Source of the DNA: an uncultured Anaerolineales bacterium | GTDB lineage: Bacteria > Chloroflexota > Anaerolineae > Anaerolineales > Villigracilaceae | DNA: 38,058 nucleotides | Assembly (NCBI GenBank): GCA_903873975.1 | Contig: CAIQQN010000016.1 | Coordinates: 1-38,058, forward strand | Direction: 5' to 3' | Shown: one piece after another, positions 13,886 through 17,298 of the stretch | Layout: the number at the start of each line of letters is the position of its first letter | How positions within the stretch are numbered: position 1 is the first letter of the stretch | Made by a program: the position numbers and the translations under genes | The notes under the pieces: generated by a model | What the model was told of the DNA's origin: nothing | The model's database searches: none | What the model saw: the letters and a program-made list of their open reading frames with translations, nothing else

Positions 13886-15163
13886 CTACAACTTGAGAAA
13901 ATACGATATTAACGTTACTACCGAGGCAATCACAATGACCACAGTGCAGGTAATTGCGAAATATTTTTGGAATTTATTGTTCGCAAAATGGCCCATGAGT
14001 TTGCGGTCATTTGTCAACTTGATCAGGTAATAAAAGACCAGTGGAAGTGCAACGGCATTGATCGTCTGTGTGACGATCGCCACCTTGAACAAAGATAAAT
14101 TCGTGAACACGACGATTACGCCCACGACAAAGAGCTGCAAGGCGAAAAGGATATAGAACGTCTTACTTTTCTTGTAGCTGTCATTGAGACTTCCCGAAAG
14201 ACCGAAGAATTCAGCAAAAGCATAAGCGGTGGAAAGCGAGACGATCACAACTCCCATGAACCCGGCATTGAGAATCCCGATGGCGAACAATGTGCCCGCC
14301 AGGTTGCCTGCAAAGGGTTTGATCGCCAGTGCGGCCTGTTCGCCTGCCACGAGCGGAATATGGTTCACAAACAGCGTTGCCGCAGTCGCCACAATCATAA
14401 AGAAAGAAAAGAAGTCGGTTAAAAACGCACCCCAATAAGTTTCGAGTTGGGAATAGTTGATTTTCCCCTTCTCAATTCTCTTGTCATAGGCAAAACTGCT
14501 GATAAAGAACTGTCCCCAGGGAGTGATCGTCGTCCCCAATACACCCATGCCAATCAACAGGTAATCGCGCATATATGTCGGTGTGGTTTGAACGCCATGA
14601 GGGTAAAACAAGTTGCTGACCGCCAGACCCCAATCCGGTTGCGCCCTGATCGCCGAGACAATATAAGTAATATAGAACAGGCTGGCGAGCAGCATAATGG
14701 CCTGGGTCAGCTTGTAGTTCCCCTTCACAATGAAAAGGAAGGAAATAAACAGGATGACCACCACCGATGGAATGGCCGGCAGATGCAGCATCCCGCTGGT
14801 TATCTTGACCGCTGACAGGTCGGTGATCAAGGTACCGATGTTCGCGATCAGCAAAGCACCGAACATGAACATCGCTGTCCGGACGCCAAACTTCTCCCGG
14901 ATCAAATCCGCCAGTCCCTTGCGGCTGATGATAGCCAGCCGCATACCCATTTCCTGGGTCACGCCGAGCAAGATGGTGATGATGACAAGCAGGAAAAGGA
15001 TGGGGTAACCGAGTTTTGCACCTGCAATCGAATAGGTGGCGACACCACCAGCATCATTATCTGACATGGCAGTAATGGTCGCCGGGCCGAAGACGGAAAG
15101 GAAGATCAGGATATTCTTCCAATACCGTTTGAAAAAGCTGCGTTTGGTGATGATATTAGTCAT
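13886..15163 (-). CDS. NRAMP-related transporter with altered metal site, probable Mg2+ importer (NrmT type)
   Basis: A 425-residue, eleven-helix SLC11/NRAMP-family protein. Helix 1 reads GPATITAMSDNDAGGVAT (residues 26-43); the usual metal-binding DPGN is DAGG here, so the Asp (37) is kept and the Asn is Gly. In helix 6 the usual A-x2-M-P-H is T-T-I-T-P-W (211-216), so the sulphur ligand of Mn/Fe transporters is Thr. Such replacements are known from NRAMP-related magnesium transporters. The gene lies 17 bp behind an MgtE-like sensor gene under an M-box Mg2+ riboswitch, which strongly supports Mg2+ as the substrate. This is inference from motif and context; a broader divalent-metal role remains possible. 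Confidence 0.88.
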   Translation of the reverse strand: MTNIITKRSFFKRYWKNILIFLSVFGPATITAMSDNDAGGVATYSIAGAKLGYPILFLLVIITILLGVTQEMGMRLAIISRKGLADLIREKFGVRTAMFMFGALLIANIGTLITDLSAVKITSGMLHLPAIPSVVVILFISFLFIVKGNYKLTQAIMLLASLFYITYIVSAIRAQPDWGLAVSNLFYPHGVQTTPTYMRDYLLIGMGVLGTTITPWGQFFISSFAYDKRIEKGKINYSQLETYWGAFLTDFFSFFMIVATAATLFVNHIPLVAGEQAALAIKPFAGNLAGTLFAIGILNAGFMGVVIVSLSTAYAFAEFFGLSGSLNDSYKKSKTFYILFALQLFVVGVIVVFTNLSLFKVAIVTQTINAVALPLVFYYLIKLTNDRKLMGHFANNKFQKYFAITCTVVIVIASVVTLISYFLKL

Positions 15164-15180
15164 GGAGCCCTGCTTTGATC

Positions 15181-16425
15181 TCAGCGGTAAAAGCGCGGCA
15201 AGCGTTTCTTCCAGGCCGTTGGGATGACCTTGTCCAGCGCATCGTCGGCGGTGACGATCCCATGCAGGCAGTTCTGGTCGTCCACCACCGGGACAGCCAG
15301 CAGGTCGTATTTCGCCACCGTCTGTGCGACGGTCTCCTGGTCATCGGTCAGGTTGACTGTGATGACACGTTTCGCCATGAAATCTTTCACCATCGCACCG
15401 GGGCTGGCAAAAATGAGATTATTCAGTGAAAAAGTGCCCAGGAGGTGATTCTCCTCGTCAGTCACATAGACATAGAACATCGTCTCAACCTCATCCGACA
15501 TGGCACGCAAAGCCTCAATGGCCTGCGCGGCTGCTAGTTCCGGGCGGATGGAGGCATATTCAGTGGTCATGATACCGCCCGCCGATTCCTCAGGGTAGGT
15601 CAGGAGTTTACGGACATCGTCTGCATCCTCCTTTTCCATCAAGGCCAGCAAGCCTTCCTTGCGGTCTTTAGGCATATCGGCCAGCAGGTCAGCTGCTTCA
15701 TCCGGTTCCATCTCTTCAAGCAAGTCGGCAACTTTTTCGTCCGACATGTGCTCGATCAGTTCAGCTTGGAATTCCGGTTCCACCTCTTCGAGGGTATCCG
15801 CTAGGTGCTGGACATCCAGAGTGTCCAACAGTTGACCGCTCTCCAGCTTGTTCAGGTCCCTGACAATTTCTGCCAGGTCGGCTGGGTGCAGTTCATGAAG
15901 TTTCTCCGCCGGGACACGTAAATGCATCTCCTGGTCACGGCGCATCAGTTCCACATCGTCCCAGGCAATCCCTTTCTTCTTGAGATGACCGCTTAGATAA
16001 TGCGCCAGCCCGACCAGCCCCAACCGGCGCATAATCCCCACCCAGGAAACATCCACGTTGCTGACATAGATCGTCCCGTTGACACGCACCAGTTCCACGT
16101 CATTGACGCGCACCACGCGCGCCCCTTCCGTGTCAATAATCTGCTTATCCAGCACATCGCGGGAAAGCAGGATATCATCCTCTTTCAATTCAAATAAAGG
16201 GGCATCGTTAAACCGGTATTTCAACGGGATGACCGGTGAGAGCAAAGCTGCCACCGCTGCAAAGGGCAGGATCCGTGTCCCGCCTTTGCCTTCAATCGCC
16301 ACCGCCTCGATCAGCGGGTGTGGAAATTCCGCCCAGGGCCGCACGATTACATCGGTTAATTTGCCAACAGCCACCCCGTCCAGATCTGTGACGGGGCGTC
16401 CAAGAATTTCGCTCAAGTAAGCCAT
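15181..16425 (-). CDS. PRC-barrel / MgtE-N / CBS-pair protein without the MgtE channel
   Basis: A 414-residue soluble protein. Residues 1-75 form a PRC-barrel (YLSEILGRPVTDLDGVAVGK), and a second PRC-like unit follows at about 85-145 (DTEGARVVRVNDVELVRVNG). An MgtE intracellular N domain covers about 165-275 (HPADLAEIVRDL, LLEEMEPDEAADLLADMP). A CBS pair covers about 280-405 (YPEESAGGIMTTEYASI, VTADDALDKV). In MgtE the N and CBS domains bind Mg2+ and close the channel; here the membrane domain is absent and an NRAMP-type permease is encoded next. It may therefore gate or sense for that permease. The ATG at 16425 follows TGGAGG at ideal spacing. Expression is under the M-box upstream. Confidence 0.9.
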   Translation of the reverse strand: MAYLSEILGRPVTDLDGVAVGKLTDVIVRPWAEFPHPLIEAVAIEGKGGTRILPFAAVAALLSPVIPLKYRFNDAPLFELKEDDILLSRDVLDKQIIDTEGARVVRVNDVELVRVNGTIYVSNVDVSWVGIMRRLGLVGLAHYLSGHLKKKGIAWDDVELMRRDQEMHLRVPAEKLHELHPADLAEIVRDLNKLESGQLLDTLDVQHLADTLEEVEPEFQAELIEHMSDEKVADLLEEMEPDEAADLLADMPKDRKEGLLALMEKEDADDVRKLLTYPEESAGGIMTTEYASIRPELAAAQAIEALRAMSDEVETMFYVYVTDEENHLLGTFSLNNLIFASPGAMVKDFMAKRVITVNLTDDQETVAQTVAKYDLLAVPVVDDQNCLHGIVTADDALDKVIPTAWKKRLPRFYR

Positions 16426-16499
16426 AATTGCCTCCAAAAAACAGGGTACACGTAAGCAGTAGAATATGGCGGAAATATGAAATGCTATGTAAGCAGTAA

Positions 16500-16533
16500 A
16501 ACGCCGCCTGATTTACCAACAGAAGGCGGCGTT
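16500..16533 (-). other. Stem-loop between the small ORF and the MgtE-N/CBS gene
   Basis: AACGCCGCCT (16524-16533, minus-strand 5' arm) pairs perfectly with AGGCGGCGTT (16500-16509) around a 14-nt loop, followed by TTAC. With its short U-run it is a weak terminator or attenuator on the minus strand. Downstream, a 10-bp repeat TACTGCTTAC occurs twice (16452-16461 and 16489-16498). Confidence 0.6.
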
Positions 16534-16544
16534 CTTTGGACTTA

Positions 16545-16700
16545 TTAGCAGGATACCATCCATTTGGCTGGTAATCCCCGGAAGAATATCTTACCGGTGC
16601 GGGAGTTGGTGATGCGCGGACATGCGCCGCACACCTGGTCCAAAAATTGCGCTTTCTGACCGTGCGCTATCGTACTTAGCGGAATACCATCAGCGTCCAC
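16545..16700 (-). CDS. Small ORF in the magnesium leader, 51 residues, GTG start
   Basis: This frame starts at a GTG 7 nt after an excellent AAAGGAGG site and ends in two tandem stop codons. The product begins MDADGIPLSTIAHGQKAQFL, has a C-x2-C pair (CGAC) near residues 24-27, a basic middle and a final Cys (WMVSC). It has no membrane helix or signal peptide. I do not recognise the family. It lies after the M-box terminator and before the MgtE-N/CBS gene, so it is made only when the riboswitch permits. It could be a small partner protein of the importer, or a leader peptide whose translation controls the hairpin right after it. The strong ribosome site argues that it is translated. Confidence 0.55.
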   Translation of the reverse strand: MDADGIPLSTIAHGQKAQFLDQVCGACPRITNSRTGKIFFRGLPAKWMVSC

Positions 16701-16743
16701 GCGATCACCTCCTTTCATTTTGCAATGCGATTTGCCAAAACCA

Positions 16744-16795
16744 TAACCATGCAGGAACCGGGACTACCGTACCCGTGCAAGAACCGGGACTACCG
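16744..16795. repeat. Two tandem 26-bp direct repeats in the magnesium operon leader
   Basis: Units 16744-16769 and 16770-16795 match at 23 of 26 positions and share GAACCGGGACTACCG at their right ends. They lie between the riboswitch terminator and the ribosome site of the small ORF. Confidence 0.8.
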
Positions 16796-16801
16796 TCCAC
16801 C

Positions 16802-16835
16802 AAAAAGAAAAACCTCCGGCAGGCCAGGAGGTTTT
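16802..16835 (-). terminator. M-box expression-platform terminator
   Basis: On the minus strand AAAACCTCC (16827-16835) pairs with GGAGGTTTT (16809-16817) around TGGCCTGCC, followed by TCTTTTTG. Its 5' arm includes ACCTCCTGG (16824-16832), exactly complementary to CCAGGAGGT (16872-16880) at the 3' end of the aptamer. This gives an antiterminator that excludes the terminator. Mg2+-bound aptamer would sequester the aptamer strand in P1 and let termination occur. Confidence 0.88.
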
Positions 16836-16871
16836 GAAAACACGCGTACACCCCGCGGGGGTTCCGCGGGC

Positions 16872-17032
16872 ACCTCCTGGTTGAGCTTTGGCACTGCGTG
16901 TCGTAGGGGACATGCTCCCAGCCACTTTGAGCGGGGCCTTAATCCGGCCCGGCCTGGTCTATCCCTTGGCGTCTTTCGACGTTTCGGGACAATGGCCTTT
17001 TTATCACGCAGACGCCTCGCCTAACGAGGTAT
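16872..17032 (-). promoter_or_regulatory. M-box (ykoK leader) Mg2+ riboswitch aptamer
   Basis: The minus strand shows the M-box consensus in order: CTCGTTAGGCGAGGCGTCTG at the 5' end, AAAGACGCCAAGGG in the middle, and CACGCAGTGCCAAAGCTCAA at the 3' end. CTGCGTG and CACGCAG pair as a long stem, and ACCTC with GAGGT closes P1. The M-box folds on binding several Mg2+ ions and turns off magnesium-uptake genes. Downstream are a terminator and the small ORF, MgtE-N/CBS and NRAMP-type genes, all on the same strand. The call rests on visual match to the known consensus. Confidence 0.93.
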
Positions 17033-17046
17033 TTGGTTGAATTGCA

Positions 17047-17076
17047 AGGATACACCCGCCCCTTGTAACCCGTCAA
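17047..17076 (-). promoter_or_regulatory. Promoter of the M-box / magnesium operon
   Basis: On the minus strand TTGACG (17071-17076) and TATCCT (17047-17052) are 18 bp apart. Predicted initiation near 17040 lies about 10 nt before P1 of the M-box, as expected for a riboswitch leader. Confidence 0.6.
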
Positions 17077-17108
17077 GGAGGAAAAATAACGTTTTCGTAT
17101 TAAATAGA

Positions 17109-17155
17109 AGACTCCCAAAGCCGGGAGTCTCATCCTGTCGGGGCGGGCGGAGTTG
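17109..17155 (-). repeat. Partial copy of the tRNA-Pro 3' end with its terminator
   Basis: These 47 bp match 17195-17241 at 45 positions. The copy holds the 3' half of the T-loop, the T-stem and acceptor strand and the downstream AGACTCCC/GGGAGTCT hairpin. The rest of the tRNA is missing, so it is a remnant and not a working gene. The two copies start 86 bp apart. Confidence 0.85.
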
Positions 17156-17186
17156 CGACAGTCCCCGCAGGGGGGAACCACCGCCT

Positions 17187-17216
17187 AAGACAAAAGACTC
17201 CCAAACCAGGGAGTCT
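17187..17216 (-). terminator. Terminator of tRNA-Pro
   Basis: On the minus strand, the 8-bp stem AGACTCCC/GGGAGTCT with a 6-nt loop is followed by TTTGTCTT. It begins 7 nt after the tRNA discriminator base. Confidence 0.85.
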
Positions 17217-17223
17217 CATCCTG

Positions 17224-17298
17224 TCGGGGCGGGCGGAGTTGAACCGCCGACCTCTGCGTCCCGAACGCAGCGCTCTAACCGGACTGAGCCACGCCCCG
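17224..17298 (-). tRNA. tRNA-Pro, anticodon CGG
   Basis: The minus strand folds as a full cloverleaf. The acceptor CGGGGCG pairs with CGCCCCG (C1-G72, typical of bacterial tRNA-Pro), the D-arm contains GGCTCAGTCCGGTTAGAGC, the anticodon stem is CTGCG/CGCAG with loop TTCGGGA (anticodon CGG, 17261-17263), and the T-arm is GGCGG-TTCAACT-CCGCC. The discriminator base is A and the CCA end is not encoded, so it must be added after transcription. It decodes CCG. A consensus promoter lies just upstream and a terminator just downstream. Confidence 0.97.

Follow-up and report, generated by a model that had tools for sequence, protein, structure and literature searches.

We analysed a window of 38,058 nucleotides (the whole stretch presented above, contig CAIQQN010000016.1 of an uncultured Anaerolineales bacterium, phylum Chloroflexota), in which the minus strand of 13886-17076 carries, in this order, a promoter, an M-box magnesium riboswitch, a first terminator, a small open reading frame (ORF), a second terminator, a gene for an MgtE-like soluble sensor and a gene for an NRAMP-type transporter. 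With a probability of about 0.6, we read this unit as a magnesium-uptake operon under three layers of Mg2+ feedback: the M-box, an attenuator in the leader and the protein sensor. Its new part is the leader, where a conserved ORF with an acidic start is followed by a terminator of its own; the gene pair itself has already been published. According to the main text of Shin et al. (2014; PMC4072509), NRAMP-related Mg2+ transporters controlled by M-boxes, named NrmT, mostly adjoin a homologue of the MgtE N-terminal domain, and cytoplasmic feedback was proposed. The headline idea of an original prediction, made from the letters of this DNA alone, that an MgtE sensor had been joined to an unrelated permease for feedback on RNA and protein, was therefore already in print, and its reference to NrmT was correct. 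What it observed is confirmed, and what it concluded is partly supported: it called the unit unusual, which holds for the small ORF with the second terminator and not for the sensor/NRAMP pair known since 2014, and it overlooked both the second terminator (16502-16531) and the meaning of the small ORF.

The following elements of the leader carry the finding.

16708-16714, minus strand: Shine-Dalgarno sequence AAGGAGG of the leader ORF, 7 nucleotides before GTG, conserved in 33 distinct leaders
16545-16700, minus strand: leader peptide ORF of 51 amino acids, MDADGIPLSTIAHGQKAQFLDQVCGACPRITNSRTGKIFFRGLPAKWMVSC, with the MDxD N-terminus kept and codon-level selection
16624-16666, minus strand: segment of the leader ORF that can pair with the terminator 2 5' arm, a putative antiterminator (duplex predictions, permutation tests)
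16502-16531, minus strand: terminator 2, CGCCGCCTTCTG...CAGGCGGCG TTTT, -20 kcal/mol with A/U flanks, hairpin z -5.75 against shuffles

The small ORF had been noticed with a start at ATG 16718. The ORF is real, having a strong Shine-Dalgarno site and a conserved MDxD, and its start is most likely GTG 16700 instead, which gives a peptide beginning MDADGIPL.... Aligned leaders of five genus members share AAAGGAGGTGAT(C/T)GC-GTG-GACGC(T/C)GATGG... together with a second terminator ahead of the sensor gene. When M-box leaders were scanned for starts preceded by a Shine-Dalgarno sequence, with the peptide sequence left unconstrained, 22 of 23 distinct leaders, all but L123, proved to have a short ORF whose start is acidic, and a further 11 distinct operons that lack an M-box have the acidic ORF too. 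An undetected riboswitch in these operons was considered and rejected: no other Rfam riboswitch was found in the six that were checked, the two matches being at chance level and both outside the leader. Start codons are GTG, ATG, TTG and apparently ATA in three related, Roseilinea-like genomes (L124, L128, L129). Longilinea arvoryzae (L109), a relative in culture, has an operon of this kind as well, with a leader peptide that begins MSADDNS....

Conservation is concentrated at the N-terminus of the peptide. Asp2 is present in 31 and Asp4 in 32 of 34 leader ORFs, which were chosen with a preference for D, N or S as residue 2 and none for residue 4; in the two that lack Asp4, L074 and L076, Asp occupies positions 2 and 5. 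Positions 7-30 of the same ORFs are 9% identical, which is near chance. In codons 2-10, close pairs differ by 15/12/36 at codon positions 1/2/3, and the ratio of nonsynonymous to synonymous change (pN/pS) is 0.28 there, compared with 0.82 in codons 21-45. Since Asp2 and Asp4 are kept and this ratio is low early and high later, selection is on the N-terminal amino acids and not on the body. A degraded known protein was rejected as the source of the ORF, with no Pfam or NCBIfam match and with bodies unrelated between relatives. A strict scan for the leader pattern elsewhere in the phylum gave 14 matches, of which three, all at these operons, resemble free short leader ORFs; the other 11 start or sit inside other reading frames and were dismissed.

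Terminator 2 is of the intrinsic type and lies between the leader ORF and the sensor gene. Here 30 of 34 leaders have a terminator call, as against 22% of shuffled sequences, and at least three of the remaining four show by eye a hairpin with a weaker T-run. If the ORF acts as an attenuator, a site within it that competes for the 5' arm of terminator 2 is to be expected. In 25 of 32 leaders the strongest pairing of the arm with the ORF body lies 31-54 nucleotides past the start (a uniform distribution would give 5.7), and pairing of each arm with its own body beats randomly dealt arms (p = 5e-5 for the 32 leaders; p = 2e-5 when collapsed to 14 kin groups, assigned by hand from peptide sequences). 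A short ORF under coding selection, an intrinsic terminator and an alternative pairing make up the anatomy of a leader-peptide attenuator, and by anatomy and comparison a translation-dependent attenuator is very probably present in the leader.

Early acidic residues destabilise ribosomes, a property used at Mg2+ transporter genes of Salmonella and E. coli (PMC11282234, PMC8092293). MgtL has Glu2 and Asp4, and drop-off at low Mg2+ opens mgtA; mgtQ has Asp2 and Glu5 (same sources). As in leaders of the MgtL type, the acidic residues of the window ORF (Asp2, Asp4) stand at the very N-terminus. Like the mgtL leader of mgtA in E. coli and Salmonella, it is a short ORF with acidic residues 2 and 4, followed by a decision on stopping transcription before a Mg2+ transporter gene. 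Unlike mgtL, it lacks Pro at 3 and 5, is longer and has no sequence relation, its terminator is intrinsic instead of Rho-dependent, and an M-box lies upstream. The mgtQ ORF of Salmonella mgtCBR is comparable in raising Mg2+ transporter expression through alternative RNA pairing; it differs in having 8 amino acids, in lying between genes and in acting on mgtB translation, whereas the window ORF lies in a 5' leader before a terminator. On balance we favour Mg2+ as the signal of the leader and ribosome drop-off as its means.

The three layers would then work as follows. At high Mg2+ the aptamer would keep its 3' strand, terminator 1 would form and transcription would halt. On transcripts that pass terminator 1, ribosomes would initiate at the strong site and make MDAD...; with ample Mg2+ they would traverse the ORF and block pairing between its body and the arm, and terminator 2 would form. 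At low Mg2+ the acidic N-terminus would make ribosomes pause or drop off after a few codons, and the freed ORF body would pair with the 5' arm of terminator 2, which would fail and let the operon be transcribed. As the third layer, the soluble MgtE-like sensor would probably damp the NRAMP importer at high Mg2+.

We see an even chance that the MDxD... leader peptides of the Anaerolineae are a family of Mg2+ sensors not yet described. Without sequence relation to MgtL, they would stand in series with the M-box, so that one mRNA would read Mg2+ through RNA folding and through ribosome stability, with an MgtE-like protein as a third check; the peptide layer would also operate where the M-box is missing. 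A word search of the openly accessible literature, with subscription literature outside its range, found no mention of the leader peptide. Ribosome-destabilising leader peptides have so far been those of a few enterobacterial Mg2+ transporter genes. If the reading is true, nascent-chain Mg2+ sensing arose more than once, in a distant phylum and without sequence relation, and was joined there to a riboswitch for the same ion. More than 30 leaders, which share no more than an acidic start, a terminator and one site of pairing, would serve as a natural comparison set. They would also give a handle on why an MgtE-like sensor accompanies NRAMP Mg2+ importers, a question standing since 2014.

An attenuator of this build might instead sense a signal other than Mg2+, e.g. 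charged tRNA-Asp or the general translation rate. Two Asp codons at fixed places would suit such a signal, and the layout of ORF, terminator 2 and antiterminator is typical of attenuators generally. We regard this as unlikely: the ORF has no run of a single codon, just two codons for Asp separated by a different one, the operon products and the M-box concern Mg2+, and MgtL and mgtQ, which serve Mg2+ transporter genes, likewise rely on acidic residues at position 2 and at position 4 or 5. Still less probable is a known NrmT operon (M-box, MgtE-like gene and NRAMP) whose small ORF would be a leftover of no importance. The gene pair and the M-box are indeed published, and the ORF is variable in its C-terminal part and in length (27-67 amino acids); a remnant, however, would hardly keep its start, Shine-Dalgarno spacing and MDxD while the body is free to vary, be followed nearly always by a second terminator, or be present where the M-box is absent.

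Upstream of the leader ORF lie the elements of the first layer.

17047-17076, minus strand: sigma-70-like promoter, TTGACG - 18 nucleotides - TATCCT, a consensus match alone (9/12 in a consensus scan)
16867-17035, minus strand: M-box (ykoK) magnesium riboswitch aptamer, Rfam RF00380, 131.1 bits, E 2e-29
16872-16880, minus strand: CCAGGAGGT, part of the aptamer 3' side and alternative partner (putative antiterminator) of the terminator 1 5' arm in the minimum free energy fold
16809-16835, minus strand: terminator 1, the M-box expression platform, a hairpin and U tract (TCTTTTT) conserved in the genus

The M-box, its terminator and the promoter had all been read correctly by eye. The RF00380 match covers the full aptamer (positions 1-169) and scores 131 bits against a curated score of 44; the aptamer is also conserved in genus members and in others, and a genome-wide RF00380 search found no second M-box in the genome of the window. 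In the minimum free energy fold of 16800-16886, CCAGGAGGU of the aptamer 3' side is paired with ACCUCCUGG of terminator 1. This predicted pairing is the customary either/or arrangement of an M-box switch, and its Mg2+ dependence is likewise a prediction. Between terminator 1 and the leader ORF, a direct repeat of about 20 nucleotides, GGTAGTCCCGGTTC.TGCA, occurs in two copies (16745-16795), and genus relatives L025 and L029 have a single copy. Other M-box operons of the phylum (L167, L176, L170, L171), with genes for NRAMP, MgtE or unidentified products, have short leader ORFs with other starts, including MDAGPSSS and MEEGG, some of them acidic.

The first gene of the operon is the following.

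15181-16425, minus strand: MgtE-like soluble sensor, PRC - MgtE_N - CBS - CBS - conserved tail IPTAWKKRLPRFYR, no channel (Pfam, alignment, Foldseek)

The product of 414 amino acids is, as predicted, an MgtE-N/CBS protein without the channel: Pfam finds MgtE_N (2e-27), two CBS (3e-16) and PRC (2e-6), and the MgtE channel domain PF01769 is absent from the protein and was not found in the genome of the window. Because PF01769 is absent, it is not an MgtE, but it is predicted to work like the sensor part of MgtE, whose cytosolic domains are its nearest solved relatives in sequence; Foldseek, run on an AlphaFold model, also leads to them (2oux/2yvy). It shares with MgtE the N domain, the CBS pair and most Mg2+ ligands, and differs in the missing channel, in the added PRC domain and in the tail, the nearly invariant last residues DDALDKIIPTAWKKRLPRFYR being located where MgtE runs on into the plug helix. 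All 13 homologues compared keep the equivalents of MgtE D91, D95, D247 and D250 unchanged; the equivalent of D226 is D or N and that of E59 is D; we take D95 to be a Mg2+-site residue of MgtE. The Mg2+-site residues named in MgtE are D91, D226, D247, D250 and E59 (PMC5882242). Since most of these ligands are retained in the sensor, feedback at the protein level is plausible.

PRC barrels had been counted among the peculiarities of the locus. One is recognised by Pfam, and a second small beta domain, at about residues 95-125, is suggested by the AlphaFold model, whose overall confidence is low (pTM, the predicted template modelling score, 0.39) and from which the domain arrangement and the tail were not read; the PRC domain is standard across the sensor family, so it is not special to this locus. 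PRC together with MgtE was not found in the openly accessible literature by a word search, which left subscription literature aside. Full-length MgtE proteins of other Chloroflexota (L038-L044, e.g. L038:2031-4094 and L044:2815-5067) carry the same N-terminal PRC; the PRC-sensor therefore occurs both with and without a channel, which may hint at the origin of the soluble sensor. Fusions of sensor and NRAMP, expected from frames of 650-750 amino acids in other Chloroflexota, were rejected, because the frames that were examined encode complete PRC-MgtE proteins including the channel, as Pfam confirmed for two.

The second gene begins 17 nucleotides past the sensor stop.

13886-15163, minus strand: predicted NRAMP-related magnesium transporter (NRMT/NrmT), site DxxG / TxxT (Pfam and PDB matches, site alignment)

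The NRAMP-related permease of the original prediction is confirmed by Pfam (5e-71), and among solved structures the Mg2+ transporter EleNRMT (7qia, 9e-63) is closest, with 216 bits compared with about 48 for bacterial MntH structures. Its site residues are D-A-G-G in helix 1 (DxxG) and T-T-I-T in helix 6 (TxxT), and every NRAMP aligned from a sensor locus combines DxxG with TxxT, TxxA or, in two cases, TxxS. The suggested role in magnesium uptake is supported, as are the M-box on an NRAMP operon and the Mg-type site, and the protein is predicted to be a Mg2+ importer of the NRMT/NrmT type. As far as the main texts on NrmT/NRMT operons describe them (PMC4072509; EleNRMT structure, PMC8806188), the present unit resembles them in the M-box, the MgtE N-terminal-like gene, the NRAMP-related Mg2+ transporter and the DxxG-TxxA/T site. 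It differs in its host (Chloroflexota here, Clostridia/Deltaproteobacteria there), in the N-terminal PRC and conserved basic tail of the sensor, and in the acidic ORF and second terminator of the leader, no leader peptide being described in the published main text.

Import of Mn2+/Fe2+, with the MgtE-like gene sensing Mn2+, is very improbable: in the main text of PMC4072509 the A. capsulatum homologue mainly rescued Mn uptake, better than Mg2+ uptake, and behaved more like a Mn transporter, but that operon lacks the M-box present here, the window protein has DxxG/TxxT, a separate canonical MntH-type protein (DxxN/AxxM) exists elsewhere in the genome, and no CorA or MgtE channel was found in this genome (about 90% complete). 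The separate NRAMP (G000 contig C170, L002; site DPGN / AxxM) adjoins a frame resembling a universal stress protein. A tandem second NRAMP copy stands behind the first in L024/L058, L027/L064 and L107, and that of L027 is broken into two frames.

The adjacency of sensor and NRAMP genes is conserved among relatives, as the original prediction would have it: NRAMP is directly downstream on the same strand in 72 of 80 named sensor loci, nearly all from metagenome genomes of Anaerolineae and other Chloroflexota; a few records carry the label of another phylum. The search for other Mg2+ uptake in the window's genome covered CorA and the MgtE channel and found neither (P-type MgtA was not searched for). 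Among 11 genomes of the genus, CorA is absent in five of the six with the operon and present in all five without it (p = 0.015); within the genus, operon and CorA are largely mutually exclusive. In 61 relatives, the operon is present in 7/10 genomes lacking CorA and MgtE and in 7/51 others (p = 0.0007; the genomes are related, so this value is indicative only).

Several points weigh against the reading with three feedback layers. In Chloroflexota, ribosomes are not necessarily destabilised by Asp codons close to the start, and di-acidic residues alone are not sufficient (PMC11282234). The arm/body pairing of the window itself is no better than that of shuffles (p 0.4), and the pairing evidence therefore depends on the family and not on the window alone. 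The leader is present in 33 of 78 operons surveyed (28/39 with TxxT-class and 2/30 with TxxA/S-class NRAMP); it is missing from 45, including nearly all of the TxxA class, and is therefore not required for the gene pair. In the only pair tested, according to the main text of PMC4072509, the A. capsulatum MgtE-like gene gave no gain in Mg2+ rescue. Four genomes have the sensor with no NRAMP found. The three Roseilinea-like genomes have leader and sensor with no NRAMP found, and the sensor may therefore act on something else there; CorA is present in them, and the M-box is full in two and a 25-bit fragment in L129.

Outside the operon, two near-identical terminator-like hairpins (GAGACTCCC...GGGAGTC) were found at 17108-17217, downstream of a tRNA gene at 17224-17298.

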